DNA from: a virus
Reading direction: 5' to 3' (one strand)
DNA: 44,435 nt
Virus record (IMG/VR): IMGVR_UViG_3300035181_002356
Location: 1 to 44,435 of that record
Each line of letters begins with the position of its first letter. The first letter of the stretch is position 1. Positions 2,398 to 43,437 of this stretch are shown piece by piece. The position numbers and the translations under genes are program-made. Under the pieces are notes generated by a model. It was not told the origin of the DNA, searched no databases, and saw nothing but the letters and a program-made list of their open reading frames with translations.

Positions 2398-2406
2398 CTA
2401 TTAATA
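2398..2406 (+). promoter_or_regulatory. CTATTAATA element, putative phage late promoter 1
   Basis: First of seven exact copies of CTATTAATA at gene boundaries on the + strand. It lies just behind the terminator and about 80 bases upstream of the next gene. No -35 box is recognisable. It resembles the T4 late octamer TATAAATA. The leader that follows contains a possible hairpin (TTTGCG 2430-2435 with CGCAAA 2452-2457). Confidence 0.72.
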
Positions 2407-2429
2407 CTTTAAGATACTATAGCGGGAGC

Positions 2430-2457
2430 TTTGCGTCTGTTAAAAGCCGGGCGCAAA
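2430..2457 (+). other. possible 5'-leader hairpin
   Basis: TTTGCG (2430-2435) can pair with CGCAAA (2452-2457) over a 16-base loop, between the putative late promoter and the Shine-Dalgarno site of the next gene. It is only six base pairs, so support is weak; it is listed because two other late leaders also hold hairpins. Confidence 0.3.
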
Positions 2458-2485
2458 CGGAATTGTATTGACGGAGGATTAAAAA

Positions 2486-2971
2486 ATGGATTTTATAGCT
2501 CTGGAAGCTTCTTTAAATAAAGCTGGGAAAAGAGAATATGATGGAATGATTAAGTTTGCTGTTGGGACTAAATTACCAGTAGATGAATTCAAATCTTTAT
2601 TTATAAAGACAGCGGCTTTTGATTTATGGACTTTGGACCCGAACGTCCAAAGCGGGGGGGATTCATATTGGAAGCTAAGTGACGATAATAAATTCTTCAT
2701 TTGTATGTATGAAAGCGATAGTCTAGAGACTCACGATCGTCGGTGGAGTGTTTATTCGGACGATAACAATAAGCGTATTTCAATCGCATATAAGAACGAT
2801 ACGATTGCCACTATGGACAGTTCTTATTTCCCAGATGGGGTAGACCCAATTACCATTAAGAGTAGTCTATTAAAAATACTTAGCTCAAAAGAGGGGCAGG
2901 TTGCTTTTTTGGATACTCTTAATGAAACAGAGCGAAATTTAATTATCAAAAAATATCCAGAGCTTCTATAG
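2486..2971 (+). CDS. unknown protein, probable late gene
   Basis: A 161-aa protein with SD GGAGGA at 2473-2478. I do not recognise a family. The N-terminal 45 residues are helical and end in FIKTAAFDLW, one of several lysine-Thr-Ala sites seen in proteins of this window. The middle part (YWKLSDDNKFFICMYESD, then RRWSVYSDDNNKRISIAYKN) looks like a small beta-sheet domain, and the C-terminus is helical. It is first in a run of nine unknown genes that follows the putative late promoter at 2398. Confidence 0.7.
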   Translation: MDFIALEASLNKAGKREYDGMIKFAVGTKLPVDEFKSLFIKTAAFDLWTLDPNVQSGGDSYWKLSDDNKFFICMYESDSLETHDRRWSVYSDDNNKRISIAYKNDTIATMDSSYFPDGVDPITIKSSLLKILSSKEGQVAFLDTLNETERNLIIKKYPELL

Positions 2972-2982
2972 CGAGGAAAGAC

Positions 2983-3822
2983 ATGAAACTTACTAAAGCT
3001 GCCAAGTATATCGAAAAACAGGCAGATGCAGACCGTAAACCAACTGAGGCTAATGTTTTTATTTTTCCTAGAATAGCGCTAATAGGAGCAAATATTGAGC
3101 TTGCCGGTCTCATTCTAGAGCTTCTGAATGTTGCCATTGATGGCAAAGAAGTAGAGGCGGAAGTAAACATAACCGATGAACAGCAAGAGGAAACTGGGAG
3201 TCAGTCCTCTCAATCGGAATTAACTTCCAAGCCAGTTCAGGTATCAGTAAATCCGCAAGAGGTTTCTGGAGTTGGTGGGGCTAAGGAAAAAACTGCATCT
3301 TTAGCAAAGTTAGCCGCATGGCAAGAGGCGTCTTCTAGTGAGGCTGTCGAGGCCCTCGCCGATGTTATAGTAAAGCTTTCTAACTTAGCAAAGCAAATAG
3401 TACGAGTGGTAGACGGGGCTACTGAAATAACTTCTGCCCTAGGACTAGAGGACGATGCAGAGCTTGCAGATAGACTTATTAAAATTCTCGTCGCGGGATT
3501 GGCAGCTCGTATTAAAGATGAGGCAGTCCAACACTTTTTAAATGGCACATCTACTGAGGAGCCTAGCAGCTTTTATAAGGTTCTAGATGAGATTTTAAGA
3601 GAATATTTTGACAAAGCAGAACATAAGAAAGAGATTACTAAAGCAGTTAGGATGATTCTAAGTAAAGGGACTCAGAATGCTTCTTATATAGGTTCTATGA
3701 ATATCAATTTTCTTTCAGGGTGGTTTCTTTCAGAGCTAAGGGGGAAGTTAAGGAAAGAAATCCACTGGCAGGCTCCAATTTCACCTGAGGCAAAAGTGGA
3801 GAGTAGAAGTGAAAATAAATAA
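2983..3822 (+). CDS. unknown helical protein with acidic Ser/Gln-rich linker
   Basis: A 279-aa protein that starts 11 bases after the previous stop (SD AGGAAAG). The N-terminus is basic and helical (MKLTKAAKYIEKQADADRK). Residues about 55-100 form a low-complexity linker rich in Glu, Gln and Ser, after which the chain is mainly helical (LAKLAAWQEASSSEAVEALA, VKLSNLAKQIVRVVDGATE). No catalytic motif is seen. It overlaps the next gene by 14 bases, which suggests translational coupling. It may be a virion or assembly protein of the late operon, but the function is unknown. Confidence 0.68.
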   Translation: MKLTKAAKYIEKQADADRKPTEANVFIFPRIALIGANIELAGLILELLNVAIDGKEVEAEVNITDEQQEETGSQSSQSELTSKPVQVSVNPQEVSGVGGAKEKTASLAKLAAWQEASSSEAVEALADVIVKLSNLAKQIVRVVDGATEITSALGLEDDAELADRLIKILVAGLAARIKDEAVQHFLNGTSTEEPSSFYKVLDEILREYFDKAEHKKEITKAVRMILSKGTQNASYIGSMNINFLSGWFLSELRGKLRKEIHWQAPISPEAKVESRSENK

Positions 3823-12099: not shown

Positions 12100-12108
12100 C
12101 TATTAATA
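12100..12108 (+). promoter_or_regulatory. CTATTAATA element, putative phage late promoter 2
   Basis: Exact copy of the 9-mer, 36 bases upstream of the start codon at 12144 and directly after the 12067-12098 hairpin. It probably drives the two small genes, the giant gene and the terminase/portal genes. Confidence 0.72.
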
Positions 12109-12143: not shown

Positions 12144-12884
12144 ATGAATTATGATATTTCCACTGATCTTCAGGTAATGAGCGAAGCAAAGGAATCGGTT
12201 GTTGCGTCAGTTGTTCCTATTAACGATGGGATAAATAAGGAGGCTTCAGGCAGGCATGTATATGATGTTGACTCTGTTAGTGGCAGAGCTGTATATGGGA
12301 AGAGCCTAGACGCAGCTATTGCATTCCTGTGGGAAAAGGTAAATAGAAGCATTGATTTCAAGGCCGATAACAAGCTTTCCATTCAGCGTGCAGCGAGCTA
12401 CTATGGAGAAATAGACAAAGCTATTTCAACTATTGTGCGTGCAGATGTGGCAGCCTTGCTTACCTCTGAAGACCTATCAAAGCTTGAAGATATCCGAGTT
12501 GCCATTAATAAGAAACATGAGGAAGTTCTTAAGACGGTGTTTGCTACTTACACTAAGCCATCCGATGATGAGTGTCCAGAATGTGGGGCGCTGCTTTATA
12601 ATGGCAAGTGTGTGGCTTGTGGAGGAAATGGTGAGATGGTAAAGGAAGCCGGTTCACCTGCTCTACAGTTTTTTGAGAGTGGTTTCATTGTAGGAATGGC
12701 CACTGATATTATGAATTATGTTGTTACTTCTGGTATGAATCTTAATGATGCCATTAATATTGCCAAAGATTCATTTGGACTTACAAAACGTGAGGAGTAT
12801 CGTCTACGTAAATACTTGAATTATATGGGGATGTTTGCCCCGCAAATGATTTGGCTTCCTCCTTCAGAAACACGCTTTTCATGA
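12144..12884 (+). CDS. unknown protein with one zinc ribbon
   Basis: A 246-aa protein. ATG 12144 is chosen because GGAGGA lies at 12133-12138; an upstream in-frame start at 12123 has no ribosome site. Residues 1-135 are mainly helical. A zinc ribbon follows (C144/C147, C156/C159; CPECG...CVACG), then a helical C-terminal domain with a hydrophobic stretch (FIVGMATDIMNYVVTSG) that could be amphipathic. It is the first gene behind the second late-promoter motif. No family is recognised. Confidence 0.7.
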   Translation: MNYDISTDLQVMSEAKESVVASVVPINDGINKEASGRHVYDVDSVSGRAVYGKSLDAAIAFLWEKVNRSIDFKADNKLSIQRAASYYGEIDKAISTIVRADVAALLTSEDLSKLEDIRVAINKKHEEVLKTVFATYTKPSDDECPECGALLYNGKCVACGGNGEMVKEAGSPALQFFESGFIVGMATDIMNYVVTSGMNLNDAINIAKDSFGLTKREEYRLRKYLNYMGMFAPQMIWLPPSETRFS

Positions 12885-13659: not shown

Positions 13660-16600
13660 ATGGCTTTTATTTTGTATTCCGCTAAGGGCAAAAATAAAGA
13701 AGTCAAAGAATCTGAGGAAAAGGGCAAAAATAAAGAAGTCAAAGAAGAATCTGAGGAAGTGGAAACTCTTCTTCCAGGTCAGGGTAATTTAGAGTCCGCC
13801 CAAGCTGTCCTAAGAGGCAAACCAAAGAAGACTAAAACCGATGAAAAAGAAATTACACCCAAAAAGCCTAGGATTACTACAAAGACAGTTCCTGAGGCGG
13901 TCGCCCTTGAGGAGATTGAGCAAGTAGAAGATACCTCTAGCACTTTAGCGGAAACTTTTGAAAAAGCGGAGGCGATTTATAAAAAGAAGAGGCCATATAG
14001 TTTTAATACTAACTCTCAATACGAGATAGATACGGATCCATATTATAGGGTGTTTGAAAGACGGAATAAGATTATTATTGCTGGCGAACCAGATACCTAT
14101 GTTGTTTTTGACAATAAGACTGGAGCATATAACATAGGTTATAAGATGGGGGATGGTTCCGTTTCCTGGACGAGACTTACTGGAAATAGTAAAGTACTTG
14201 TGGCTAAAATGAAAGAAAAGTTGGAACATGTTCCCGATATAGTTGATGGCCCCAAGGAATCAAAGGTGAGCGCAATTTGGGGCGGTAAACTTAGTAGGTT
14301 TTTTCGTCTTAAAAAGGCTGTCTCATATAGTAATTCTGCTATTTTTAATGTTTATGTCGTTTCTGGTCGTAACATTGTTCCTGATTTAGACTGGCGAGAG
14401 CAAACATTTGTAAAGGTTGGGGATTATTACAGGCCCGTCGAGAAGGAATGGGAACCAGAAGATATTTTTACTTGGTATAGGGTTATTGCCACTGTTGATA
14501 ATTCTTCTGGTGAAAGGCTACTTGGGATTGCAAAACATCGTGGGGCTTCGACTTTTGATGTTTTGGTGGCCAAGTTGGATGGTTCTGACTCTCATAGGGT
14601 CGCACCAAATGAAGTTAAGCTATTCGATTATGTTTCTGGGGATCAGATTAATCTATCCGATATCGGTACCTATTATCATGGTTTTCCCAATAAAGAGTCA
14701 GCTAAATATGCCAGCTCTGCTGGTACAATAGCCACAGAATTTGCCACGGAGGAGGTAGATAAGCTTGATAGGTCTACCTTTTTCTTTGTGGACGGGGAGG
14801 CACCTCATCGCGTTGTTACAGGGACAAGGTACGAGAAAGTTAAAGAAGAGGATAAAATTTACATCAAAGCCGTCACGGGTCCTGCCACAGGACTTTATTC
14901 TGATTTATTCTTAAGAACGGCATTAAATGCTGAACCTATTTTGCCTACCAAGATAGATAGAGTGGCACGAATTAAAGATAGGAAATCTGGCTTTTATCAT
15001 GCGGATATCATGGATGCCAAGAAAAAGGAGAGCATATTTACCCAGGGCCACGCCGTCCAATTTGAAATTGGCTCTATGGATGAGGACGGCGCCTTCTATC
15101 CCACGGGTAAAGATGGCGATGTCTTTTGGGCTATTCTCCCTACGGGTAGAGACTTTTATGTAGAAGTTGAAAAACCGGCAGGTGGCTCAGCATCTCTAGC
15201 GGCCGATACTAAGACGTTGGAATTAGTTAGCACAGCTACAGCAACGCCGGAGCAGCTCGATGCAGTTTCCAAGTTAATTCTCTCGGCTTATCCTATATTC
15301 TCTAAAGAGATATATGATGATGAGAAGCTTAGACGTGAGTTTGCTTCTTTATTATTAGAACCACACCCCAACCCGATATATGCTTTTAGCCCTGTTTCTC
15401 AGCCTGAGAAATCTAAGGCCTTGCTTAATTTATTTATCAATTTCATGTTTAATAATTTAGAATCTAAATTATCAAAAGATAGTGATAACAATGTTACTAG
15501 TAGGGAGAATGTGTTAGCTAAGGTTGATTCGTATCTAAGTAGGGTAACTAAAGTGGACCCTCATGGTTTAGCCCAATTATTTTTTGGTGCTCCTATTAAA
15601 CAAGTTAATGTCAATATAGATCAGTTTTATAATGATGTCATTGGTTCCGGTGTCGATCAGGAGACAGCGACGACAGAAAGAGGGCCGGAACAACTTAGGC
15701 AGCGTGGCAAGTTTATTGACTTCTATATACAGAGCCCTATGATTGGCACGTTGGAGGCGGGGAGATGGATCGTTGAGGCCGTAGATGCTGTGACGGTTGA
15801 GCCTAGCGGTATTTATGTTATTAAAAGCCATGGCACTACTAAAAAGAAACAAAGTGTCTATCTAGCCAAGAGGGATTGGGATTTAAACTTTGAAAGCGGT
15901 GCTGACGATAGCCGTTTGCCGTTTGGAGCTGTATCTTTTAGTATTATTGATTTTAGGACTGGGGATGTTGTGGCTAATGTTATTACAAAAGAATATGAAA
16001 AAGATAAGTTTCGGGAAATCTCTAAAGATGAATTTACTAAGGCGTTTTATTCCAGTCGGCCTATACGAGAAACGCTTGACCGTCGCCTATCTACTGGTCT
16101 GAGAGATATTGGGCTTACTTCGGACAAAGCTAATACTGTGTCCACTCAGTTGATTGATCAGCTGTCTGTTCTTTTGTCCACTCCAAAAGTTATTGCTGGA
16201 ATTCTTGGAGTGCCAAAACAGGACGTGGTTACCTGGCTACATGGCCCAGAAAAACTAGATGAAAAGATTCTTGTTGAAGTAGTGTCATATTTTATGTCTA
16301 TTTTGGGAGAAGATAAACATTTGGAACTTTCTGTCGCAAAGGAATTAGAAGGCTTAATATCGAAGTTATCTAAACCTAATAAATTTAGTGCGAAGAACTT
16401 TCTAGATGAGGCGCCTACTATTGCTGCTGAACTTATGGTAATCGTTTTAAATAAGCTTCGCAGCACAATGTTGATGGATAAGATTGCGACAGAGGCTCGT
16501 CGCTCGCTTGATACCTATTACGATAATTTGGAGACAGCAGCATTTGTTAAGGTGGCTACTAATTTATATAGTGGGCCTTGTGCTGTCTTTGCTGATAAAA

Positions 16601-27307: not shown

Positions 27308-30202
27308 ATGGATGACGATGCTAAGAAATTTTATTATGGTGACAGTAAAGAATTTGATCCTCTAAATGAGCTCTCCCCAGTTAGAAGAGAACAGCTCAAA
27401 AATGTATCAGGGTCAGGGAAAAGAGGTGGCGCTTCTCCAAGTTCGCATAAAACGGCGGACGCTAATCTGAATATGCCCACCTCTGTTACAGACGCCACAA
27501 CCTCGTTGGCCGCCTATAAGATAGCTTCTTTTAGTAAGACAGCTGAGTTTGGCGGTACCTATGGGGGGAATAATAGTGGGGGTGGCGGTGGTTCAGTTAG
27601 AACTATTCCTAGGGTTTACTCACCACTATTTGAGCTTTCTAACTTACAGTTGCCGAGAGATAGGCGCACGCTTAATGCGTGGTGTAGGCATTTCTATTCT
27701 ACTCATCCTTTAGTGAGAAACTGTATTAATCTACATGCAACGTTTCCTATTTCTAAATTTGAAATAACTTGTGATAATAAAAAGATTGAAACTGAAATGA
27801 ACGAGCTAGCAGAAGATATGAGACTTCTGCATGTTTTATATGGCGTAGCCCTTGTTTATTGGATGTTAGGTGAGGCGTTTCCGTATGGAGACTGGAATGA
27901 TAATGACAAGACGTGGCGCCGTTGGGTTGTTCACAATCCAGACTACGTCGATGTTAAGTATTCGGCCGTAACTATGGAACCTCTTATCACACTGCAGCCT
28001 GACGATACACTAAAACGCCTCGTTAGGAGTAATGATCCTAAAGATAAATACATTAGAGCTACCCTTCCTAAAGAAATTATTTATTATATTTCACGAGGGC
28101 AGAATATTCCCCTAGACTCTTTTAACGTAACCCACGTGAAGTTTTTGTCTGAGCCCTATGATCATCGTGGCACTAGCATTATTGCCTCTTGCTTTAAAGA
28201 TCTTATGCTATACGATTTACTTAGGGAAAGCGAATATGCCCAGGCAGCGAACTTGATTAACCCCATCACTCATGTTAAATTGGGGGATCCGCTTGGCAGA
28301 TGGCGTCCAACCGATGAAGACTTAGCACAATTCAGAGATATCTTTGTAGATTTACAGTTTGATTTGGACCCGAAGCTTATTACTCATGGAGCCGTTCAAA
28401 TAGAAAAGATTGGTAATGCAGGTGGTATTATTGACACTACTCCAAAATTAGACCGTATTATTAAAAACATCATGGCCGGTTTAATGGTCCCAGAAGGAGT
28501 TATTACCGGAGAGGGTCCTAATTATTGCTATGACGAAGAGACTGAGACTCTTACCAAGCGCGGCTTCAAGAGGTATGATGAAATTGTAGATACAGATGAA
28601 ATTGCCACATTTAATCCAGAAACTAAAGTGATAGAGTATCATCATTACAAGGAGAAGATAGTCAATTATTATTCTGGGAATATGATAAGTTTTAAAACAC
28701 GGTTTATGGATATTAAGGTCACTCCAAATCACAGGATGTATGTTAGAGATAGAAAGACTATGCAGTGGGAAACGGTCCAAGCTGCTGATGTAAAAGTGAG
28801 AAGCAGTATACTAGATCATGGAGATTGGGTGGGGCACACTCCAGAAACAATTACATATGGTGGTTTTGTTTTTACCCCAAAGGAATTTATCAATTTAGTA
28901 TTTTATACTTGGACTAGAAGTAAGGTTATTGAAGAAGACGGTCAAAAGGTAATGATATATAAATATGCTCAGCGTGGCCCAGCCGTGGAGTGGAAGGACG
29001 CCATGGTAGTATTAGGCGTTAAGTATGATGAGAAATATAAGGGCTATGTTATGAGGGATCAGAATTTTATAGAACTCTGTCAAAGAGAAATCAGTAGCGA
29101 GTTTGACACTTGGAAGCTTCCAAGGTTAATTGGAGATTGGTCAAAGCATGATATTTATGAGGTTCTTAATAAGTTGGCTGGAAGACATGGTATTGCAAAA
29201 AAAAGCTATGTGAGCAAAAGAGGATTACTATTAAGGGCGTCTTTTGCTTTGTACTCTAAAGAATTAATAGACTTTATCCAGGAGCTATTTTTCAAGTGTG
29301 GGTATTCAACTAGAGTAGATGCGGAATTTAAACCTTGGAGAAATAAAACAATTTATCGTATGAATTTTTCACATGCCGCTAAACAGACAGCTAGAGTAAT
29401 TGACCTTAGGTCTAAGGGCCGAGTACTAATGCCTTGCAAGTCAGAGGTGCCATATGACGGCATAGTATATTGCTTTGATGTGCCGCCAAACCATCTATTT
29501 GTGACTAGGAGAAATGGCCTAGTTACTATTCAGGGGAATAGTACCGCTTCGGTTGGTCTGGAAGTTTTGCGTCAAAGATATTTAATGTTCAGAGACGAAT
29601 TGGAATATTGGATTCGTAATAAGGTAATAAAGCCTATCGCCGTGGCGAGAGATTGGACGATTATCGAGTCAAAGCAAAAGAAGCTTATCATCCCCAAGAT
29701 ACAGTGGAATAAGCTTACTCTTAAGGACTTGAATGATTACATGCAAAAGGTGGCAGATGGGTTCAATTCAGCTAAAGTGGTTTCTCGAGATTCCTATTTG
29801 AAAAGTTTAGACTTAGATCCCGAAGAAGAGTTAGCAAATAGAAGGAAAGAGATGCTAGAGGATGCTATTCTTGCAAAGGAAAAAAGGATTTTAGAGTCTT
29901 CGGCTTATTCTCTCACAGAGATGCGCTCAATGACTCCTAGTACCGTAATAGAGGACAGGGTAATTCCAGGAACTCAACAGCCAGCCTCTCAATCTGGTGG
30001 AGGTGCACAGGGGCCAGATTTGTCTGGGGGTCTGGGTGGTGGTGCTCCCAATGGAGGTGGGGGCGGTATGCCAGATTTGGGAAGTGGATTAGGACCAATG
30101 TCGGAGCCCTCTTCATCAGACATTGCTCCAGGTGGAGCTCCAGAAACTGGAGAGGGGGCGGTGGGTACTCCTCCACCTCCATCGCCGGGACAAACATCTT
30201 AG
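27308..30202 (+). CDS. portal protein, interrupted by an intein
   Basis: A 964-codon frame with SD GAGGAG. The exteins are portal-like: LPRDRRTLNAWCRHFYSTHP near residue 113, then a long body, IKNIMAGLMVPEGVITGEG just before the intein, and SVGLEVLRQRYLMFRDELEY just after it. The C-terminus is Gly/Pro-rich and disordered. The portal forms the dodecameric ring at the head vertex through which terminase threads DNA. Residues 407-744 are an intein; splicing would leave about 626 residues. The N-terminal 100 residues are Gly/Ser-rich and contain FSKTAEFGG, a possible processing site. The position after terL and before the protease supports the call. Confidence 0.88.
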   Translation: MDDDAKKFYYGDSKEFDPLNELSPVRREQLKNVSGSGKRGGASPSSHKTADANLNMPTSVTDATTSLAAYKIASFSKTAEFGGTYGGNNSGGGGGSVRTIPRVYSPLFELSNLQLPRDRRTLNAWCRHFYSTHPLVRNCINLHATFPISKFEITCDNKKIETEMNELAEDMRLLHVLYGVALVYWMLGEAFPYGDWNDNDKTWRRWVVHNPDYVDVKYSAVTMEPLITLQPDDTLKRLVRSNDPKDKYIRATLPKEIIYYISRGQNIPLDSFNVTHVKFLSEPYDHRGTSIIASCFKDLMLYDLLRESEYAQAANLINPITHVKLGDPLGRWRPTDEDLAQFRDIFVDLQFDLDPKLITHGAVQIEKIGNAGGIIDTTPKLDRIIKNIMAGLMVPEGVITGEGPNYCYDEETETLTKRGFKRYDEIVDTDEIATFNPETKVIEYHHYKEKIVNYYSGNMISFKTRFMDIKVTPNHRMYVRDRKTMQWETVQAADVKVRSSILDHGDWVGHTPETITYGGFVFTPKEFINLVFYTWTRSKVIEEDGQKVMIYKYAQRGPAVEWKDAMVVLGVKYDEKYKGYVMRDQNFIELCQREISSEFDTWKLPRLIGDWSKHDIYEVLNKLAGRHGIAKKSYVSKRGLLLRASFALYSKELIDFIQELFFKCGYSTRVDAEFKPWRNKTIYRMNFSHAAKQTARVIDLRSKGRVLMPCKSEVPYDGIVYCFDVPPNHLFVTRRNGLVTIQGNSTASVGLEVLRQRYLMFRDELEYWIRNKVIKPIAVARDWTIIESKQKKLIIPKIQWNKLTLKDLNDYMQKVADGFNSAKVVSRDSYLKSLDLDPEEELANRRKEMLEDAILAKEKRILESSAYSLTEMRSMTPSTVIEDRVIPGTQQPASQSGGGAQGPDLSGGLGGGAPNGGGGGMPDLGSGLGPMSEPSSSDIAPGGAPETGEGAVGTPPPPSPGQTS
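28526..29539 (+). mobile_element. intein in the portal gene with degenerate LAGLIDADG-type region
   Basis: A 338-codon in-frame insertion from Cys407 to Asn744 of the precursor. Block A is CYDEETETLTKRGFKRYDEI; block B is TPNHRMYV (T472, H475). The C-terminal blocks are YCFDVPPNHLFV and RNGLVTIQGN, followed by Ser745 as the +1 residue. The penultimate residue is Gly instead of the usual His. The middle resembles a LAGLIDADG homing endonuclease (ELIDFIQELFFKCGYSTRV is typical of the second half), but the motif position reads VLNKLAGRHG without the acidic residue, so the nuclease is probably inactive. Splicing would join GEGPNY to STASVGLEVL. Confidence 0.9.
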
Positions 30203-30205: not shown

Positions 30206-30214
30206 CTATTAATA
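30206..30214 (+). promoter_or_regulatory. CTATTAATA element, putative phage late promoter 3
   Basis: Exact 9-mer four bases after the portal stop codon and 40 bases upstream of the next start codon. It lies in a 52-base intergenic gap. Confidence 0.72.
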
Positions 30215-30254: not shown

Positions 30255-31157
30255 ATGAAGCTAGCATCTGCTATTAGTCGTTCTTTAAGCGAAGAGGAGA
30301 TTAGGATTTTAAGAAAGTTGTCTTCTAAATTAAGTGGTTATTCCACGGACATAGCCTTATTTGTCTCAAGCATTAAGAATAGCGATGTCACTAGACTTGT
30401 CGCTAGCGGAGAGCTTATGAAAAAACTTACTGATTTGGATGGGGCCGTGGATAAAGCCAAAAGCATGGAAGAACTTAATAATCTTCTAGTGGGAGAAAAG
30501 GCTGGAAAAGAAACTCCTGTTTCTTCTGGGATCGAGAAAAAAACCACCTCCCCGCCTTCGGACGTAGCAAAACTAAAAGAGCCGGTAGACAATCTAGTTA
30601 AGGATATCAAAGAACAGGCAGACGCAGAGCTTAAACCAGAGAAAGTAAATGGAGGTCGGTCTATGAGAGATATTATTAAGGAGGCGTTAAATAATTCCCC
30701 TTTGTCCGAACCCCCTTCTTCGTCTACTGATGCCGCCACTTCCCCTCTGCAAGGACAGGAAGATAATTCCCTGGTGGCAATTCTGAACATGGCAAACCTT
30801 GGGCAGTTTATAGAAGCCATGGTTGGTCAAGGCAAGACGAATATTACCGCTGTTCTGTCAGATTTAGATAGTAGCTTAAAGGAGGTTTCAAATTCCACTT
30901 CCACAGGAGGGCAATCTGCTCTAAGTCGAGACTTAAGGGAGAAGGTGGCCGATATTCAGCAAGCTTCTACTAATTCAGCTCAAGCTATAGAAGAGATGAA
31001 AAAACAAATTAACGTTGTTTTACAGTCTCTTAAGAGTTTTGTTGATTTTGCCAAAACAAGCTCTCCTAGCGAGTCTTTGCAGTCTTTGCAGACTGCAATT
31101 GATGCTTTAGTCTCTGGGATTAATGAAGGGATTAAAGATGTAAATACGAATAGTTAA
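30255..31157 (+). CDS. unknown Ser/Lys-rich helical protein of the head cluster
   Basis: A 300-aa protein. ATG 30255 is preferred over GTG 30249 because GGAG lies at 30246-30249. The N-terminus is a Lys/Leu-rich helix pair (RSLSEEEIRILRKLSSKLSG). A Pro/Ser/Glu-rich middle follows (residues about 85-165), then a helical C-terminal third with heptad-like Ala/Leu spacing. Position between portal and protease/scaffold suggests a head-assembly or internal head protein. No family is recognised. Confidence 0.68.
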   Translation: MKLASAISRSLSEEEIRILRKLSSKLSGYSTDIALFVSSIKNSDVTRLVASGELMKKLTDLDGAVDKAKSMEELNNLLVGEKAGKETPVSSGIEKKTTSPPSDVAKLKEPVDNLVKDIKEQADAELKPEKVNGGRSMRDIIKEALNNSPLSEPPSSSTDAATSPLQGQEDNSLVAILNMANLGQFIEAMVGQGKTNITAVLSDLDSSLKEVSNSTSTGGQSALSRDLREKVADIQQASTNSAQAIEEMKKQINVVLQSLKSFVDFAKTSSPSESLQSLQTAIDALVSGINEGIKDVNTNS

Positions 31158-31342: not shown

Positions 31343-31351
31343 CTATTAATA
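31343..31351 (+). promoter_or_regulatory. CTATTAATA element, putative phage late promoter 4
   Basis: Exact 9-mer in the 62-base gap ahead of the protease/scaffold operon; the next base makes it the palindrome CTATTAATAG. A small hairpin begins 24 bases downstream of the motif start. Confidence 0.74.
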
Positions 31352-31366
31352 GTTAAATATGAAATA

Positions 31367-31382
31367 AGCACGAAAATGTGCT
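31367..31382 (+). other. small 5'-leader hairpin
   Basis: AGCAC (31367-31371) pairs with GTGCT (31378-31382) over a six-base GAAAAT loop. It lies between the putative late promoter and the Shine-Dalgarno site (about 31385-31391). Its start is 24 bases from the motif start, the same offset as the hairpin at 39533. Confidence 0.4.
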
Positions 31383-31397
31383 GTAAAGGAGAGTAGC

Positions 31398-31811
31398 ATG
31401 CGAAAAACATTTAGTTTTAGTGAGCTAAAGGAGGCCCTTCGCACTACAGGTCTTACCAAGACGGCTGCGGCAATTAATCCTGGGGAGCTAACTCCAGGGC
31501 AGGTCATTGAGAACATTTGCAGTATTGGTGATACTCTGGATGCGCATGGCTTCGAGCAGCTAGCAGAAAAGCTTACGGCTTCTATTCAGGCTCTTCTTAG
31601 CTTTAAGACTGCAGCTGAGAATGAAGAGAATTTTGAGCTGTCATTTAAGTGTCCAGAGTGTGGCGCTGAGATTGTGGCTGAGATAGAGATTGAGAGTGAA
31701 GAACAGGACGAGAAAGAAAAGGCTGGCAATGCGCCGTCAGAAGAGGAAGAAGAGGAAGAAGAGGGGAAAGAGGGGAAAGAGGAAAAAGAGGAAGAAGAAG
31801 AGGAAGAATAG
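31398..31811 (+). CDS. small protein with CPECG knuckle and poly-Glu tail
   Basis: A 137-aa protein. The N-terminal 70 residues are helical, with LTKTAAAINPG and SFKTAAENEE flanking a helical hairpin (ICSIGDTLDAHGFEQLAEKL) that resembles the helical motif of other head-region genes. A beta segment follows with a single CPECG (C85, C88), then a tail made almost only of Glu and Lys. It is 18 bases upstream of the protease/scaffold gene. An acidic helper or scaffold-like part is possible, but this is inference. Confidence 0.68.
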   Translation: MRKTFSFSELKEALRTTGLTKTAAAINPGELTPGQVIENICSIGDTLDAHGFEQLAEKLTASIQALLSFKTAAENEENFELSFKCPECGAEIVAEIEIESEEQDEKEKAGNAPSEEEEEEEEGKEGKEEKEEEEEEE

Positions 31812-31829: not shown

Positions 31830-34760
31830 ATGTTCATTAAAGTTGGTGAAGCCGCTGACTCTCTTACTGCTTTCAAGTTTATGACTCCAGATGAGGCGCT
31901 CGAACCCAAGGTGGTTAGTGAGCGCTTTATAAAGTTTTTAGAGAGATTTAAGTCTGCCGCCGATAAGAGGTTAGCTAAGGGGTCTCCTGTTGCGCCTTAT
32001 CGTAGTGATGACTTTTTGTATTTTAGAACTGTCATTATGCACGCAGCGGAGAGAGCTAATCTAGACAAAACTGGGGCCTTGGTTGGTGATGGCAGGTTTA
32101 TCGTAACTAAAGCTGGGGAAAAGGAAATTTGGCGTTGGGTATCTGAGAAGGGCATTCATCCCTATGCTAATGCCAATGGAGATATTTTTCCTGAGGATGA
32201 GCTAATAAAGGCGGCTGGTACCTGGATTGGCAAGGGACTTTATTGTAACCACCAGTCCAACGATGTTGAAAAACTTAGGGGTATTATTATAGACACGTTT
32301 TACGACAAAGCTACTAAAGAACTGTGGGGTTTGGTTGCTTTAGACAAAAAAAATTTTCCAATCCTAGCGGCTCAAGTGAAAAATGGAACTATTAGAAATG
32401 TTTCAATGGGGACAGCAGTTAAGCGTTCCTATTGCACGCTTTGCGGCAATATGGCTGTTGTCGAAGCCGATTATTGCGATTGTATTAAGAAAGGATTAAA
32501 AAATAAGATAGTAAACAATACGCTAGTTGGAGAAATTAATGTTGGGCTAACTGGTGTTGAGTTGTCTTTGGTTGGTATGCCAGCCGATAAAGATGCAACC
32601 ATTCGACATGTCTACGCGAGCCTACAGGCTCAGCTTGAAGAACTTAACGCGGAACTTAGCTCAGAAGAGTCTTATGATGATGGATTACAGAAAGTTGCTG
32701 AGCTGAAAGAACAGATAGATGCAGTTGAGCGCACGATGCATCAGTGCGACAAGGAAAAAAAGTCTATAGGAGGCATTAAAATGCTTACAGTTGAAGAGAG
32801 GGAAAAGCGGGCGGCAGATCGCCGTAGGATCCTAACCGCTTATATGCAGGGTACTACCGAGCCAAAGCCTGGCCAGGTAAACTATCCTCCAGAGCCTACC
32901 AATGCAAACCTTCGCGATGAAGAGCTTGCAAAGGCAAAGAAAGAGGAGAATGAAACCGCTCCTAAGATGGGCGATAAGGGTACCGACCAGAAGACTAGGG
33001 CCGATCAACAGAGAACGGTTGCCGAAAGGAAGATGAATCGTGAAAAGATTCGTCAGGCGTATATGCAGGGAACAACTGAGCCCACTCCGGGTGGCCAATA
33101 TACTCCTGAGCCGATGGGTGTGAAGGTTCGTGACGAAGAACTATCCAAAGCGAAAGGTGAAGAAAAGGCTACTGAGACAGCAATTGGTAATACGAAGGCT
33201 ATTAAAGAAAAGCTGCAGAGAGCCTCTTATCTTGGTGCACGCTTTGTATATGCTAAAGACGATGATGGGACCGTTATTCCAGAGCAGTCTTATTGGACTG
33301 TTTACGCTACCAATGATCCTAAGGCTGAGTTTACGGAAGATAATGCTATTTTAACGGTCACTGCGGCTGAAGCTTATGGTAGTGATCTCCATAAAATTGC
33401 TAAAGACGATGAGGGCAAAGACGACACTGAGGGGCGTACTAATTGGCAGTTTATGGCTAGCAAAGCATATGGCAATGAGCTTATCTCATTTGTTAAGGAG
33501 GCTGGTATTGATACTGTTCTAGCTACCTTTAAGACGGCTGCTGAGTCTCCGCTTGCTTCTGGGCTTGAAGCCCCCTCAGTTACTGAAGAGCCAGGTAAAG
33601 GTGAGCTAGCAGAACCCGACACGGAGTCAGGTCTACTTGACAACGAGAAAGAGAAAGAAGAGGGAAAGGAAGAAGAGGGAAAGGAAGAAGAGGGAATGGA
33701 AGAGGAAGAGAAAGAGAAAGAGGAAGAGGCAAAGGAAAAGCCAGCCGACGGTCCGATTACAAATAAAGAGGAGGCTGGCGAGGCGATTTCTCATGTTGAG
33801 GAAATCCTTGGCAAGGTTAAGGATTTTGTTGTAGATCAACTTAGTTCTCCAGATTTTGATGCCACTGAGGCTGACCACGCTGTTGGTCTAGCCGAAGAGG
33901 GCAAGGGTCTTATGGAGAAATCTAAGACTCCAGGGGAAGCGGGGTCTGCACTTGCGTCTGAGATTCAGGACTTTATCAAACGCGCAGAGACTTTTCTTGA
34001 AGCTAAAAAGAAGGCTCCGAAGTGCAAGAAGTGCGGTAAGAATCATTTCCCCTTCCAGAAGTGCCCAACGGATAAAAATGAAGATAAAAATGAAGAGAAG
34101 GCATGGAAGGAAGATAAAAAGAAGAATAAGAAGGAAGCCGCTGCGACGGGTAGGGAAGTAAAGGATATTCCAGCCCCAGCAAATCAGGGTGCGGCAGCTA
34201 AGGCTCCAACAGGCAAAGAGGTGAAGGACATTGGTGACATTATTTCTCCTCTAGCCTCGCAATCGGTTGATATTGACAATGTCGGTGGGCAGGATATGCA
34301 TATAGAGTCTAAACCAGAGCAGCATGAGAAAGATCAGGCTGCAGCTAAATCGGTTCCTACTGGCAAGGTTGGTTCTGAGACATTCGCCCAGAAGGTTGGG
34401 GCGACTATTCAGGCTGAGCAGCTTAAACGAGAAAAAGATCTCGCAGTTGCTAAGATGAGAAGGGCTTACGATTTAGCTTCCGTTCTTTCCGCTAAAGGTC
34501 ATATTTCTGATACTGAAATTCGTAAGAAGGCTGATGAGTTCTATGAACTTTCTGATGATGCCTTTGCTTCAGTGAAGAGGATCATTGAGGCTATGCCCAA
34601 TGCACAGGGTACGGTTAAGGTGGCTAGTGCTATTGCTTCACTGGGTAACATTAATGGAGACAATACCCTTAGCAATGTTTCTTCTGCCAATGAAAAGTCT
34701 CTTACGGAGAAGCTTTCTGATATTTTTACTGTAAGGGGACCCAAGATTCGCTTTAAGTAA
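31830..34760 (+). CDS. prohead protease fused to a scaffolding domain
   Basis: A 976-aa protein with SD AAGGAG. Residues about 60-265 match the phage prohead maturation protease fold: candidate catalytic His141 (YCNHQSND) and Ser192 (IRNVSMGTAV), an inserted Cys cluster (C202, C205, C216, C218) and the typical ending VELSLVGMPADKDA. From about residue 318 the chain is a highly charged, helical, acidic scaffold-like region with an internal duplication, a Glu/Lys block (residues about 605-645), a Cys knuckle CKKCGKNHFPFQKC and a helical C-terminus. The scaffold shapes the procapsid; the protease then removes it. A strong internal ribosome site at codon 318 suggests a separate scaffold product. 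It lies upstream of the capsid genes, as usual. Confidence 0.85.
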   Translation: MFIKVGEAADSLTAFKFMTPDEALEPKVVSERFIKFLERFKSAADKRLAKGSPVAPYRSDDFLYFRTVIMHAAERANLDKTGALVGDGRFIVTKAGEKEIWRWVSEKGIHPYANANGDIFPEDELIKAAGTWIGKGLYCNHQSNDVEKLRGIIIDTFYDKATKELWGLVALDKKNFPILAAQVKNGTIRNVSMGTAVKRSYCTLCGNMAVVEADYCDCIKKGLKNKIVNNTLVGEINVGLTGVELSLVGMPADKDATIRHVYASLQAQLEELNAELSSEESYDDGLQKVAELKEQIDAVERTMHQCDKEKKSIGGIKMLTVEEREKRAADRRRILTAYMQGTTEPKPGQVNYPPEPTNANLRDEELAKAKKEENETAPKMGDKGTDQKTRADQQRTVAERKMNREKIRQAYMQGTTEPTPGGQYTPEPMGVKVRDEELSKAKGEEKATETAIGNTKAIKEKLQRASYLGARFVYAKDDDGTVIPEQSYWTVYATNDPKAEFTEDNAILTVTAAEAYGSDLHKIAKDDEGKDDTEGRTNWQFMASKAYGNELISFVKEAGIDTVLATFKTAAESPLASGLEAPSVTEEPGKGELAEPDTESGLLDNEKEKEEGKEEEGKEEEGMEEEEKEKEEEAKEKPADGPITNKEEAGEAISHVEEILGKVKDFVVDQLSSPDFDATEADHAVGLAEEGKGLMEKSKTPGEAGSALASEIQDFIKRAETFLEAKKKAPKCKKCGKNHFPFQKCPTDKNEDKNEEKAWKEDKKKNKKEAAATGREVKDIPAPANQGAAAKAPTGKEVKDIGDIISPLASQSVDIDNVGGQDMHIESKPEQHEKDQAAAKSVPTGKVGSETFAQKVGATIQAEQLKREKDLAVAKMRRAYDLASVLSAKGHISDTEIRKKADEFYELSDDAFASVKRIIEAMPNAQGTVKVASAIASLGNINGDNTLSNVSSANEKSLTEKLSDIFTVRGPKIRFK
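32768..34760 (+). CDS. nested internal start: free scaffolding protein (ATG 32781)
   Basis: Inside the protease/scaffold frame a perfect AGGAGG (32768-32773) stands 7 bases before an in-frame ATG at 32781 (codon 318, MLTVEEREKRAADRRR). It lies just where the protease domain ends. Translation from it would give a 659-aa scaffold without the protease, as lambda Nu3 is made from within gene C. The coding part is 32781-34760; the feature start marks the ribosome site. The function is inferred from position and composition. Confidence 0.62.
32820..33164. repeat. internal duplication in the scaffold domain
   Basis: Residues 331-373 and 404-445 of the protease/scaffold protein share AYMQGTTEP, a PEP tripeptide and RDEEL[AS]KAK in the same order and spacing. 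DNA copies are at about 32820-32948 and 33039-33164. The repeat starts 13 residues after the internal start codon. Confidence 0.85.
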
Positions 34761-39504: not shown

Positions 39505-39508
39505 TTAT

Positions 39509-39517
39509 CTATTAATA
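39509..39517 (+). promoter_or_regulatory. CTATTAATA element, putative phage late promoter 5 (capsid operon)
   Basis: Exact 9-mer in the 81-base gap ahead of decoration protein B and the major capsid protein. This is the place where the strongest late promoter is expected. An 11-bp hairpin begins 24 bases downstream of the motif start. Confidence 0.78.
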
Positions 39518-39585: not shown

Positions 39586-40299
39586 ATGCTTTATCTATTT
39601 TACGATGATGGCAAGCCGTTTGGGTTTTTTGATTTTTACAACGATGCCACGTCCGTCGTAACTACAGCTCCCCTTATTCAGGGCGGTATGCTTGGCTTCT
39701 TCAAGTCAACAGCCGGTGGTCCCATGGGTGATGGGTACGGCCCAGTTATTCCTTTGGGCGATGGTTTCGATGAGGGCGCGGGATCCCAAGTAAAAACGGT
39801 TATTGCCCCTGCAACCACACAGAATGGCTATGTGGCTTCAGCTACAACCCCGCTTGTCCTGCTTGATGACGGCAGCACGGGGTATGGAACAATGTTTGGT
39901 CATCAGTTTGGTTATGATAGTGGCTCAACCGAGTATAAGTATTATCACGGTTGGAGAACAGGCGACCTAGTTGGTCCGAATACCATGATGGGCTCTGGTA
40001 AAGTGACTGGCTGGTTCCAGAATGGTCTTTACGGCACCGATGTTTACTACGCCTATGACCCAGCAACTCCAGAAGTTCCTGGCTCGGCTCTTGCCTTCAG
40101 TGTCACTGGTACGGCTGGTGCTCACGGAGCTTGCTTCACTAAGGGCGGTTCAGTGACTGGTGTAGCCTCTAAGACCGTTGCTTACTTCATCTCTTTTATG
40201 GGCGATCCATCTTATGTGTCGACGTCTTTCCCCGCCGCACACAGTCAAACGGGTGGCGACACAGGTCAGCCTGTGATGCTATTCGCGTGGGCCCAGTAA
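39586..40299 (+). CDS. beta-rich virion protein, probable capsid decoration protein B
   Basis: A 237-aa protein. ATG 39586 follows AAAGGAGG by 7 bases; an open upstream stretch from 39520 has no ribosome site. The protein is Gly/Thr/Ser-rich and beta-type (MLYLFYDDGKPFGFFDFYND). GSGKVTGWFQNGLYGTDVY resembles the C-terminal region of the protein at 35270. Codons here use clearly more C in third position than most of the window, as in the capsid gene downstream, a sign of high expression. It is 22 bases upstream of the capsid start. Major head decoration protein is the best guess. Confidence 0.68.
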   Translation: MLYLFYDDGKPFGFFDFYNDATSVVTTAPLIQGGMLGFFKSTAGGPMGDGYGPVIPLGDGFDEGAGSQVKTVIAPATTQNGYVASATTPLVLLDDGSTGYGTMFGHQFGYDSGSTEYKYYHGWRTGDLVGPNTMMGSGKVTGWFQNGLYGTDVYYAYDPATPEVPGSALAFSVTGTAGAHGACFTKGGSVTGVASKTVAYFISFMGDPSYVSTSFPAAHSQTGGDTGQPVMLFAWAQ

Positions 40300-40321: not shown

Positions 40322-41302
40322 ATGTCTAATATTAATGCTAATACGCAGGTTGACGCTCTCAAAGAGCTAGTCCGCTATGCTCAGATGATTGCCGAGGGTG
40401 GGGAAAACCTTCCGAGCAATTTTGGTCTTACTAATAGCGAGCCCAGCTATAGTGAGTCGGAAAAAGAGGCCCTTCTTAAAGAGGCTTTGGCTACTGATGC
40501 TGGTCGTGTTGCGCTAGGTCAGGCAATGGCCAACCCGATTCGTAGGAACCTTGACTACCAGGGTATCGGTCGTAAGGCTCTTATCGTCGATCCTCTTCCG
40601 CCCGGCGCTCTTGCCGTGTACGATAAGGATATTGACGTGGGTGCTACCGTTATTTCTTCTAACGGTGCTGCTCCAGAATCACGTGTTTTTGGTGACAGGG
40701 TATCTGTTCCAGAGTTCGAAGTTGTTTCTTATCCTACGGTTCGTATAGCTGAAGTTCGGCGTCGTAGATTTAATGTCATCGACAGGGCTCAGCAGAAGGC
40801 CCGTCAGGAAATCCAGGCCCAGGAAGATGCTAATATCTTTGCGGCTTTGGACTTTGCAGCTGGCCAGGAAAATACGGCCCAGACGATTCCTTCTTCATTG
40901 ACTGTGCCTGATCTTCTAAAGCTTAAGCAGCAGATTGACCGTTGGGACTTGGTAACTACTAAGTTCATGATGAACATTACCGAGTTTACCGATATCATGG
41001 GCTGGTATTCCTTGAATGCTTCGGGCTACGGCGTTGATATGGTTACCCAGCGTGAAATTTTGCAGACCGGTCTTTATGCTCGCATCTGGGGCGCTGATAT
41101 TATCGTCAGCAAGATGGTTCCTCGCGGCACCGTTTACGCCCTTACGGATCCTGAGTTCGTGGGTGTAATGCCCGTCCGTCAAGATGTGGAAGTACTTCCG
41201 GCAGATGAGCCGAGGCAGCTAAAACTAGGATGGGTGGTCAATGAAATTATTGGCATCGCGGTTGTAAACGGTCGTGGCGTAGCAAAGGGCACTAAGATAT
41301 AA
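40322..41302 (+). CDS. major capsid protein, HK97 fold
   Basis: A 326-aa protein. ATG 40322 is preferred over ATG 40316 because AAAGGAGA (40307-40314) is too close to the first. The sequence matches a well-populated family of phage major capsid proteins: GIGRKALIVDPLPPGALAVY, then VRIAEVRRRRFNVIDRAQQK, ARQEIQAQEDANIFAALDFA, WGADIIVSKMVPRGTVYAL and the C-terminal GWVVNEIIGIAVVNGRG. The N-terminal 75 residues are helical and may form a delta-like scaffold domain removed by the prohead protease. Codon use is GC-richer than most neighbours, fitting the most abundant protein of the virion. A strong terminator follows. Confidence 0.9.
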   Translation: MSNINANTQVDALKELVRYAQMIAEGGENLPSNFGLTNSEPSYSESEKEALLKEALATDAGRVALGQAMANPIRRNLDYQGIGRKALIVDPLPPGALAVYDKDIDVGATVISSNGAAPESRVFGDRVSVPEFEVVSYPTVRIAEVRRRRFNVIDRAQQKARQEIQAQEDANIFAALDFAAGQENTAQTIPSSLTVPDLLKLKQQIDRWDLVTTKFMMNITEFTDIMGWYSLNASGYGVDMVTQREILQTGLYARIWGADIIVSKMVPRGTVYALTDPEFVGVMPVRQDVEVLPADEPRQLKLGWVVNEIIGIAVVNGRGVAKGTKI

Positions 41303-41333
41303 GTCTTTAATAATCAATAGTTTGTGTCCACGG

Positions 41334-41367
41334 TGGGCCGGGAATAAAATCCCGGCCCATTCTTTTT
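41334..41367 (+). terminator. rho-independent terminator after the major capsid gene
   Basis: TGGGCCGGGA (41334-41343) pairs perfectly with TCCCGGCCCA (41350-41359) over a six-base loop, followed by TTCTTTTT (41360-41367). Its core resembles the terminator at 2351-2378. A CTATTAATA site follows 13 bases later. Confidence 0.95.
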
Positions 41368-41380: not shown

Positions 41381-41389
41381 CTATTAATA
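41381..41389 (+). promoter_or_regulatory. CTATTAATA element, putative phage late promoter 6
   Basis: Exact 9-mer right behind the capsid terminator and about 110 bases upstream of the homing endonuclease gene. It shares this terminator-then-motif layout with 2351-2406. Confidence 0.74.
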
Positions 41390-41438
41390 ATTTTCTATTT
41401 AATTGTGGTTCTCTGGCAGGTAAGTAAGATTAACAAAT

Positions 41439-41467: not shown

Positions 41468-41498
41468 GCTATGACGAAAGGTAGCTGGAGTTTAAAAA

Positions 41499-42911
41499 AT
41501 GGCAAAAGAAATGGGAGTGTATGTGATCACTAATTTAGTTAATAAGAAAATATATATTGGTTCTACTAACGATTTTAAACATCGAGAATATAAACATTTC
41601 AAAGACTTAGCAGATCATGTTCATCCGAACAGATGGCTTCAAATGAGTTATGATAAGTATGGCCCTCAGGCTTTTTTATTTTCTCAGCTTGAGATTGTCA
41701 CCGACATTAACCAGTTAATTCCTAGGGAACAGTTTTATTTGGATAAATTAAAGCCATGGAGACCTCACAAAGGATACAATATTTGCAAAATTGCCGGTGG
41801 GACAGATGGCATTACCTATACGGAGGAATCCAGGGCTAAAATTGCTAAGATTAAAAGAGGTCTTCCTGCTACAGGTAAAAATCAGAAAGGCCCAGGACAT
41901 TCTAGGGCAAAAGAATTTACTCTTAAGTCTCCGACTGGAGAGATCGTCACGGCTAAAAATATAGATGATTTTGCTAGGCAGCATGGCCTAGACCCAGAGC
42001 ATATCAGGGCCGTATTGAGGGGCGATAGCCATACTCATGCCGGTTGGTCTCTTCCTGATTATGTAGCGCCAGAGGTTAAAACATATAAATTTAAAGACCC
42101 AGATGGGAACATTCAGGAAGTTACGGGGAATCTCAAGGCATGGTGCCGAGAAAAGAATCTTCGCTATAATGCCATTCAGGGTCTTATTTATAAAACTAGG
42201 CTTTCTCATCAGGGATGGACTTTAGCCGATACCACCAAAATTAAAGAGGCTTATTATAAAATTCAAGGGCCGGATGGAACTATCTATGAAACTAACAATT
42301 TAAAAATGTTTTGTCTAGAACATGATTTGTCGGATGGTGCGATGAGCCGAGTTGCTAATAAAAAAGCAAAGCAACATAAAGGCTTTAAGGTTTTAGAAGC
42401 GATTATTCCAGAAAGAAGACGGCTGTTTACCTTATTGGGCCCAGATGGTAAATCGCACTCTGCGCCGTCTATAGGGGAATTATGCGAGAAATATAATCTT
42501 GAGCCTGGGCCCATAAGCCATATCTTTAAGCACAATCAACAGCAATGGAACGGTTGGCGTCTTCCAGATGAGGAAGATAAGAGAGAGAAAACATATACAT
42601 TAGTTTCACCAGAAGGCAAAGAGTATACTTTTATAGGATTAAAAGAATTTTGCGAAGAGCATAATCTTAATCCAGGCGGCGTTTATCAGGTGCTTCAGGG
42701 TATATCTCAGCATCATCATGGCTGGACAAAACCAGGGTCATCTTTTATTCCACATGAAAATATCACCTATAGGTTTATTTCTCCTGATGGGATTGTACAC
42801 GAAACTAATAAACTTCGCGCTTGGTGTAGAGAGAAGGGTTTAAATAAAGGTACAATGTATCAGGTTTGGACTGGCAAATGTAAATCCTGCAGAGGATGGA
42901 GGAAAGCGTGA
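41499..42911 (+). CDS. GIY-YIG homing endonuclease with six C-terminal DNA-binding-like repeats
   Basis: A 470-aa protein with SD GGAG at 41487-41490. Residues 1-95 are a GIY-YIG nuclease: GVYVITN (6-12), KIYIGSTNDF with YIG at 19-21, catalytic Arg29 (KHREYKHF), metal-binding Glu77 (PREQFYLDKL) and GYNI at 92-95. A short NUMOD3-like stretch (SRAKIAKIKRG) follows. Six repeats of about 57 residues start at about 140, 196, 253, 310, 366 and 424. Each has [FY]xxxxPxG, a helix with a conserved acid or Cys, and a final hGW. They resemble NUMOD-type DNA-binding modules. It would cut a cognate site in related phages and spread with its flanks. It is free-standing, not inside an intron, directly after the capsid operon, and coupled to the next gene. 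Confidence 0.9.
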   Translation: MAKEMGVYVITNLVNKKIYIGSTNDFKHREYKHFKDLADHVHPNRWLQMSYDKYGPQAFLFSQLEIVTDINQLIPREQFYLDKLKPWRPHKGYNICKIAGGTDGITYTEESRAKIAKIKRGLPATGKNQKGPGHSRAKEFTLKSPTGEIVTAKNIDDFARQHGLDPEHIRAVLRGDSHTHAGWSLPDYVAPEVKTYKFKDPDGNIQEVTGNLKAWCREKNLRYNAIQGLIYKTRLSHQGWTLADTTKIKEAYYKIQGPDGTIYETNNLKMFCLEHDLSDGAMSRVANKKAKQHKGFKVLEAIIPERRRLFTLLGPDGKSHSAPSIGELCEKYNLEPGPISHIFKHNQQQWNGWRLPDEEDKREKTYTLVSPEGKEYTFIGLKEFCEEHNLNPGGVYQVLQGISQHHHGWTKPGSSFIPHENITYRFISPDGIVHETNKLRAWCREKGLNKGTMYQVWTGKCKSCRGWRKA

Positions 42912-43330
42912 AAAAGACAGACTTAAGTTCTAAGCCTGTGACTATCCAACAAAACGCAAGGGAATTTCAAAATTGGAAAGAATTTGCGCTTCAATGCTCT
43001 CGGAATGCAGATTTTTATAGAGATCTTATAGTTAGAGTGGGTCAGATCGTAGGAGAAGAAGTTCATATATGTGATGATGAATTTAGGTCTGAACTGGATG
43101 CCATTGCGAGAGCTGGGCATTGGAAAGAATTTGCGGTTCGGTGTCATCAGAATGCACAGCTTTATAGAGACCTCATAGTTAAAGTGGGACAGATTATAGG
43201 GGAAGAAGCTTATATCTGTGATGATGGATCTAGGTCCGAAGATGTTCTTTGTCTTAAGGTACCAGAGCTAGTTGATAAGTTATTGTCTGATGCGCGTCGG
43301 TTAACTTCTCGCCAGTCGTGTCCCTCCTGA
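42908..43330 (+). CDS. small unknown protein made of two repeated units
   Basis: GTG 42908 is preferred: it overlaps the previous stop as GTGA and has GGAGGA at 42898-42903. ATG 42896 is an alternative. The protein (about 140 aa) holds two homologous units: NWKEFALQCSRNADFYRDLI with VRVGQIVGEEVHICDD, and HWKEFAVRCHQNAQLYRDLI with VKVGQIIGEEAYICDD. The identity between them shows a fairly recent internal duplication. No family is recognised. Coupling to the endonuclease suggests a shared transcript, but not necessarily a shared function. Confidence 0.7.
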   Translation: MKKTDLSSKPVTIQQNAREFQNWKEFALQCSRNADFYRDLIVRVGQIVGEEVHICDDEFRSELDAIARAGHWKEFAVRCHQNAQLYRDLIVKVGQIIGEEAYICDDGSRSEDVLCLKVPELVDKLLSDARRLTSRQSCPS

Positions 43331-43382
43331 TTTTTTATAATTCGCTTAGTCTTTCTCGTGCATAAAGGCTTATTTTTGACTA

Positions 43383-43411
43383 TTGACTTTTTTGTTGTAG
43401 TGCGTTATATT
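43383..43411 (+). promoter_or_regulatory. strong sigma-70-type promoter ahead of kamA
   Basis: TTGACT (43383-43388) and TATATT (43406-43411) with an exact 17-base spacer, in a 149-base intergenic region; transcription would start near 43418. It is close to the bacterial housekeeping consensus. A CTATTAATA site follows 18 bases downstream. Confidence 0.72.
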
Positions 43412-43428
43412 GTCAGTGTGTTGAGTAA

Positions 43429-43437
43429 CTATTAATA
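43429..43437 (+). promoter_or_regulatory. CTATTAATA element, putative phage late promoter 7
   Basis: Exact 9-mer between the sigma-70-type promoter and the kamA gene, about 40 bases upstream of the preferred start codon. It ties this gene to the same regulatory system as the head genes. Confidence 0.72.

Follow-up and report, generated by a model that had tools for sequence, protein, structure and literature searches.

A strict nonamer between genes as the putative late promoter of uncultured giant phages related to Bacillus phage G

The window analysed here is a fragment of 44,435 nucleotides (nt) from the genome of an uncultured phage (IMG/VR record IMGVR_UViG_3300035181_002356). Between its genes it carries seven copies of the nonamer CTATTAATA, which most probably (at a rough probability of 0.85) serves as the -10-like element by which late promoters of the phage itself are recognised and would depend on a phage sigma factor. 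That these copies form a late promoter belonging to the phage had already been proposed in a preliminary description of the window; the proposal is supported by the counts obtained in a large relative (G001), by the strand orientation of the copies, by the variants found at orthologous positions, by conserved bases downstream of the motif and by the classes of genes that follow it. The promoter reading rests throughout on sequence analysis, from which we infer the identity of the promoter, its start position, its late timing and its recognition by a sigma-70-like protein of 272 amino acids (aa), as opposed to a protein with sigma region 4 only or to both together.

Source DNA and relatives

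Many relatives of the window are present in IMG/VR. G001 is a contig of 332,730 bp whose capsid protein is 93% identical to that of the window, and further relatives are represented by contigs of 130-340 kb with capsid identities of 62-68%. Another contig (G014, 70.8 kb) is identical to the window at the gene for a sigma-region-4 protein and reaches further upstream. The major head protein of Bacillus phage G shows 53% identity with the major capsid protein of the window (40322-41302). All coding and gap counts are based on approximate gene calls from a codon-usage script, and motif positions are numbered from the C of the motif as 0.

Copies of the motif in the window

Scanning of the window located CTATTAATA at 2398, 12100, 30206, 31343, 39509, 41381 and 43429, all on the + strand and all at the coordinates given in the preliminary description. 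A match on the - strand (31344-31352) belongs to the same site as 31343, which reads CTATTAATAG, a perfect palindrome. Independent gene calls placed 7/7 copies in gaps, as had been claimed, and a start codon follows each of them at 44-118 nt. The gaps amount to 1454 of the 44,435 bases (3.3% of the window), somewhat more than the 1 kb estimated earlier. The strong terminators reported directly ahead of two copies were recovered at 2353-2378 (8-bp GC stem, T5) and 41332-41361. The sites and their surroundings are as follows.

2353..2378, + strand: intrinsic terminator, GGCCCGGG aataa CCCGGGCC then T5, 8-bp GC stem; just upstream of site 1
2398..2406, + strand: site 1, putative late-promoter motif CTATTAATA; predicted start ~2414; before 2486-2971 and following genes; start codon at 88 nt
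12100..12108, + strand: site 2, putative late-promoter motif; predicted start ~12116; before 12144-12884; start codon at 44 nt
30206..30214, + strand: site 3, putative late-promoter motif; predicted start ~30222; before 30255-31157; G001 counterpart at 329382
31343..31352, + strand: site 4, putative late-promoter motif, palindromic CTATTAATAG; predicted start ~31359; before 31398-31811; G001 counterpart at 330450
39509..39517, + strand: site 5, putative late-promoter motif; predicted start ~39525; before 39586-40299 and the major capsid gene
40322..41302, + strand: gene for the major capsid protein, assigned to the transcription unit of site 5; reference point of the comparisons
41332..41366, + strand: intrinsic terminator; just upstream of site 6
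41381..41389, + strand: site 6, putative late-promoter motif; predicted start ~41397; before the GIY-YIG homing endonuclease gene 41499-42911
43429..43437, + strand: site 7, putative late-promoter motif; predicted start ~43445; before 43480-44433 (radical SAM protein, truncated where the window stops)

Dinucleotide shuffles of the window (n=100) contained on average 1.00 copy and at most 4, compared with the 7 observed. When the gap sequences were shuffled (300 runs), the top shared nonamer occurred in 1-3 gaps, while CTATTAATA occurs in 7; an origin by chance from A+T-rich gaps was thus ruled out. The motif is strict: among its one-mismatch variants the sole occurrence in a gap of the window was CTATTAGTA, found once.

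Genome-scale behaviour in a large relative

The comparison of coding and intergenic counts over a complete genome, which the preliminary description had suggested as a check, was carried out with G001 and came out in favour of the promoter: 24 of its 27 copies of CTATTAATA lie in gaps, which account for 12.9% of its length, and a gene on the same strand begins less than 140 nt after 20 of the copies. In an unbiased k-mer count, where the motif was not preset, CTATTAATA was the most enriched gap nonamer; shuffled gaps reached 3-8 for the best nonamer, the observed value being 19. The few genes on the minus strand have minus-strand copies in front of them, at 12237 and 155976, and a palindromic copy at 151890 stands between divergent genes. 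One-letter variants of CTATTAATA were hardly enriched.

Two promoter classes and the genes behind them

A second motif, TTGACtttt and TATATT at a spacing of 17 bp, has about 35 occurrences in G001 and six or seven in G014. The first genes behind TTGAC-N17-TATATT include those for a DNA helicase, a DNA polymerase, an RNA-binding protein and a DNA-binding protein. Behind CTATTAATA the first genes include those for a baseplate protein, a virion structural protein and a spanin-like protein, as well as tail/baseplate units, and the units of the window hold terminase, portal, protease and capsid. The part of G014 that extends beyond the upstream end of the window (62 kb) has 3 copies of CTATTAATA versus 7 in the 44-kb window of virion genes. 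The promoter classes behind strong terminators (late in 2/16 cases, neither class in 14/16) are too few cases to be read further.

Both promoter types stand ahead of one gene at 43383-43437, and CTATTAATA lies within the spacer of a TTGAC promoter at two G001 sites and at one locus from the population to which the window belongs (L010). Such composite sites probably reflect dual early/late control, by analogy with phage AR9, in which genes expressed throughout infection carry both promoter types (PMC5312081).

43383..43411, + strand: sigma-70-type promoter TTGACT-N17-TATATT upstream of site 7, read as possible dual early/late control
L089 10881-10915, L090 10744-10780 and L010 ~7096: composite sites, CTATTAATA 11 bases from the start of TTGAC

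Lineage variants in relatives

Unbiased counts recovered related words in other lineages: CTATCAATA in G003, G007 and G008, and CTA(C/T)TAAT(A/T) in G006, G009, G010 and G012. In G008, a contig with 54% GC, 6/6 copies of CTATCAATA lie in gaps. When the variant labels were placed on a tree of capsid proteins, 5 changes were needed versus 8.9 for shuffled labels, none of 200 shuffles being as low. The variants also occupy an orthologous position. In the gap ahead of the gene next upstream of the capsid gene, CTATTAATA is present in the window, G001 and G002 at 76-77 nt from the start codon; the same gap holds CTATCAATA in G003 and G007 (106 and 89 nt, respectively) and CTACTAATA in G006 (102 nt). 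Over a broader set of capsid loci, CTAYYAATW occurred at most 1.1 kb upstream in 14/71, each of two control patterns in 0/71.

The core TATTAATA is a perfect palindrome, and an operator could be imagined on which a phage repressor or activator, acting near host-type promoters, switches late operons on or off. The copies located in the TTGAC...TATATT spacer (two G001 sites and L010) and the conserved helix-turn-helix proteins encoded by these phages would fit such a role. However, the lineages with CTATCAATA and CTACTAATA break the palindrome and yet keep the 5' C and the orientation, a host-type promoter does not stand beside most sites, and bases are conserved at a fixed distance downstream, as expected of a start site. 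Since the CTATCAATA and CTACTAATA variants are not palindromes, the site is directional; the palindromic operator was ruled out as principal explanation on the same ground and has little chance of being correct.

Two further observations were made on the relatives. Marine relatives share a conserved palindromic CTATTAATAG. Within ~20 nt downstream of it comes a hairpin, GGGAGGG/CCCTCCC, that has a T run, and next the homologue of gene 35270 of the window; this arrangement was seen in G009 at 33145 (L124), G010 at 75514 (L182) and G012 at 119194 (L202), and also in L054, L061, L079, L080 and L087. G005 (L217-L233) and G011 (L209-L216) form a sister lineage, and in G005 a gap word around TTCCCATCGCCTAACGGCA is repeated in 9-15 gaps.

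Anatomy of the motif and predicted start

Columns around the motif were compared with shuffled flanks in three lineage groups. T17 was significant in all three, and A16 was present in 21/21 sites of the CTATCAATA group, together with C15 and G14. G24 was significant in two groups and G23 in the third; an explanation of G24 as by-product of the Shine-Dalgarno sequence was ruled out, as it is still seen where the leader exceeds 45 nt. On the upstream side the base adjoining the motif was the only informative one, and no column at the -35 position was informative in any of the three groups. In the window clade the AT fraction rises to 0.76 at positions 9-23, compared with 0.60-0.66 in the flanks.

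In 30 leaders of at most 45 nt, Shine-Dalgarno sequences begin no earlier than position 21, the closest cluster being at 23-27. If the ribosome site has to be contained in the RNA, the start would lie at or before about position 21. With the start bounded in this way, the conserved A16-T17, located 8 nt beyond the motif, is the most plausible candidate.

The motif might instead be an activator box, like that of T4 MotA, for an appropriated host sigma-70 holoenzyme; the nonamer would then take the place of the -35 element, with a -10 hexamer at about position 17. At some sites T17 and the A/T letters close to it are indeed weakly -10-like, and host-type promoters exist elsewhere in the genome. 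Position 18, however, is not conserved as A, although the second base of the -10 element (A at -11) is the most conserved one in real -10 boxes, and in many short leaders the Shine-Dalgarno sequence (first base at 21-27) would precede a start at about position 28. Both a start at this position and the -10 hexamer at position 17 were ruled out on these grounds, and the activator box is a very improbable explanation.

An element acting at the RNA level, in the processing, stability or translation of mRNA with promoters located elsewhere, would account for the position of all copies upstream of coding regions at a leader-like distance, and several copies begin a few bases from the upstream stop codon. 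Copies between divergent genes or behind terminators (2398 and 41381 of the window) nevertheless need a local promoter, and none of the TTGAC type was found in those gaps; furthermore, the minimum distance between motif and Shine-Dalgarno sequence is kept despite widely varying leader lengths. There is hardly any chance that such a leader element explains the motif.

Candidate readers of the motif

The RNA polymerase beta domain (PF00562) was found in none of 17 records of the group, several of which are fragments, and in 14/14 control genomes. As this domain was not found, the host core polymerase is likely to be the enzyme acting at the predicted late promoter. Sigma region 4 was detected in 16/17 records and region 2 in ten. 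In the record of phage G (NC_023719, L106), sigma region 2 and region 4 domains were located at 3684, 45763, 218550 and 428701.

A 272-aa sigma-70-like protein is encoded outside the window (G001 270838-271656; G014 33630-34448; L251 3001-3816). It aligned with RpoD over residues 41-263 (E 6e-10) and spans regions 2-4. Its region-2 part gave a weak match to PHROG 234, "late sigma transcription factor" (E 2.5e-4 and 5.6e-4), and a NPxxYI stretch after the FD of region 2 is common to T4 gp55 and the 272-aa protein, which may tentatively be linked to gp55. The start of its gene follows a copy of CTATTAATA at 33-34 nt in G001 as well as in G014. From these sequence features the 272-aa protein appears to be the one most likely to read the motif, with odds slightly better than even. 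Its C-terminus is hydrophobic, with LFNALD or FFNALD, and recalls FLYEAND of gp55.

The window itself encodes another candidate.

1688..2287, + strand: 199-aa protein with sigma-70 region 4 only (Pfam Sigma70_r4, E 1.1e-9); candidate accessory factor

Orthologues of this protein were found in ten contigs spanning all motif variants, and its gene stands shortly before a motif copy in the window, G001, G015, G009, G010 and G012. The late promoter could therefore be read mainly by the region-4-only protein, or by a second region-2 protein (family B) present in G003, G007, G009, G010 and G012, a variant that overlaps with the explanation preferred here. Recognition of a -10 element is, however, a function of sigma region 2, which the region-4-only protein does not contain; the family-B protein was not found in the window clade, and the 272-aa protein spans regions 2-4 and sits behind its own motif. 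A reader other than the 272-aa protein is thus possible, although rather unlikely.

Proposed mechanism and its limits

In the phage-sigma-dependent late promoter proposed here, early genes would first be read from TTGAC-N17-TATATT promoters by the host RNA polymerase. One or several phage sigma-type proteins would then redirect the host core enzyme to CTATTAATA, which would be recognised without a -35 box, with melting over the A+T-rich stretch just downstream. RNA would start about 8 nt past the motif, at position 16 from the C, and the operons for virion, assembly and lysis would thereby be switched on. The copy of CTATTAATA before the 272-aa sigma gene would lead to its own activation and thus to positive feedback.

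Several observations weigh against this interpretation. Three G001 copies lie entirely within called genes, and non-virion genes (ribonucleotide reductase, AAA ATPase, homing endonucleases) are also found behind CTATTAATA. The lineage of G005 and G011 shows no excess of CTAYYAATA in gaps and is enriched in a different word, TGATATAT. Bacillus phage G has no excess of CTATTAATA either and was dropped as a carrier of the motif. For a promoter, the position of the marine copy directly before a terminator-like hairpin is odd. The comparison of T4 gp55 with the 272-aa protein was not significant (phmmer), and the AlphaFold2 model of the latter, built from three sequences only, was poor (predicted local distance difference test score, pLDDT, of 46) and was not used. 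Finally, when the promoters of phage 7-11 were mapped (PMC8948821), they did not confirm an earlier prediction from its sequence (PMC4331800); the statistics for CTATTAATA are far stronger than those of that prediction.

As a whole, the data may represent a so far undescribed late-transcription system of a large group of uncultured giant relatives of phage G, a view to which we give somewhat less than even odds. A sigma factor with regions 2 and 4, of which region 2 is possibly gp55-like, and a widely conserved region-4-only partner would recognise one 9-bp element that is accompanied by a fixed initiator; the central letters (TT, TC, CT), drifting by lineage, would constitute a natural record of sigma-promoter co-evolution. 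In the open-access literature, CTATTAATA, TATCAATA and CTACTAATA as whole words were found in no paper. A survey of jumbo phages from 2021 stated that group 3 phages have no RNA polymerases and no sigma factors (PMC7824862); the sigma-like proteins detected here, including those of phage G, argue against the latter statement. The combination of sigma-like proteins and a strict promoter-like element before virion operons makes the question testable with cloned proteins. The lineage variants offer a ready data set on sigma-promoter co-evolution, and the motif variants would allow the annotation of late operons in uncultured giant phages.

Further features of the window

Additional features were noted next to the motif sites and among the structural genes.

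31830-34760, + strand: 976-aa gene with a match to head maturation protease, also behind site 4

In the leader behind the palindromic copy (31343-31397), a short hairpin with the sequence AGCAC gaaaat GTGCT immediately precedes the ribosome site, and a similar one is present in G001. The homing endonuclease gene of site 6 (41499-42911) shows NUMOD-like repeats and has its own motif behind a terminator, right after the capsid gene. The portal gene (27308-30202) carries an intein-like insertion at residues ~400-750, with a weak Pfam Intein_splicing match, and insertions are seemingly present in the portal genes of G003 and G005, too. Between the structural genes and the terminase, an open frame of about 3,880 codons (13660-25305) gave no Pfam match in any third.

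Comparison with known systems

The host sigma-70 promoter pattern (a TTGACA-like -35 element, about 17 bp and a -10 element) was not found as a conserved feature of the motif sites; it forms a separate set, with few composites. Bacillus phage G resembles the window in its related capsid protein (53%) and in its sigma-like region 2 and region 4 domains, and differs in the frequency of CTATTAATA.

The late promoter of phage AR9 is AACA-N6-TA/G, with the last base as start (PMC5312081). Late promoters of AR9 and phiKZ share with the present element a short upstream sequence at fixed distance from a conserved initiator; however, they are read by the phages' own multisubunit non-virion RNA polymerase, and no RNA polymerase beta domain was detected in the 17 records. 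The gp36-dependent middle and late promoters of phiEco32 consist of the 9-bp element tAATGTAtA with a start 6-8 bp downstream and are recognised by a phage sigma factor on the host core enzyme (PMC8948821). The single 9-bp element and the predicted start distance are alike, while the word is another one, gp36 has no region 4 and the phage group is unrelated.

Late promoters of T4, which belong to its gp55/gp33/gp45 system, comprise a single -10-like element of 8-9 bp without -35, used by the host core polymerase, with a start about one helical turn downstream (PMC2988020). The present element shares the strict -10-like sequence without -35, the A+T-rich stretch downstream and the division into early and late genes, and its predicted start, which A16/T17 and the Shine-Dalgarno limit would place 8 nt beyond the motif, is close to the T4 layout. 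In contrast, the word is CTAYYAATA instead of TATAAATA, A16, T17 and G24 are additionally conserved, and the candidate 272-aa sigma factor has regions 2 and 4 where T4 gp55 has region 2 only. The relation to the T4 octamer drawn in the preliminary description holds in so far as TATTAATA is one mismatch away from TATAAATA; the T4 octamer itself is not what the sites contain, as TATTAATA was found at 7/7 window sites and CTATAAATA only once, inside a gene, in a one-mismatch scan. The best reading by analogy is that the CTATTAATA element would work like a T4 late promoter with a word of its own.

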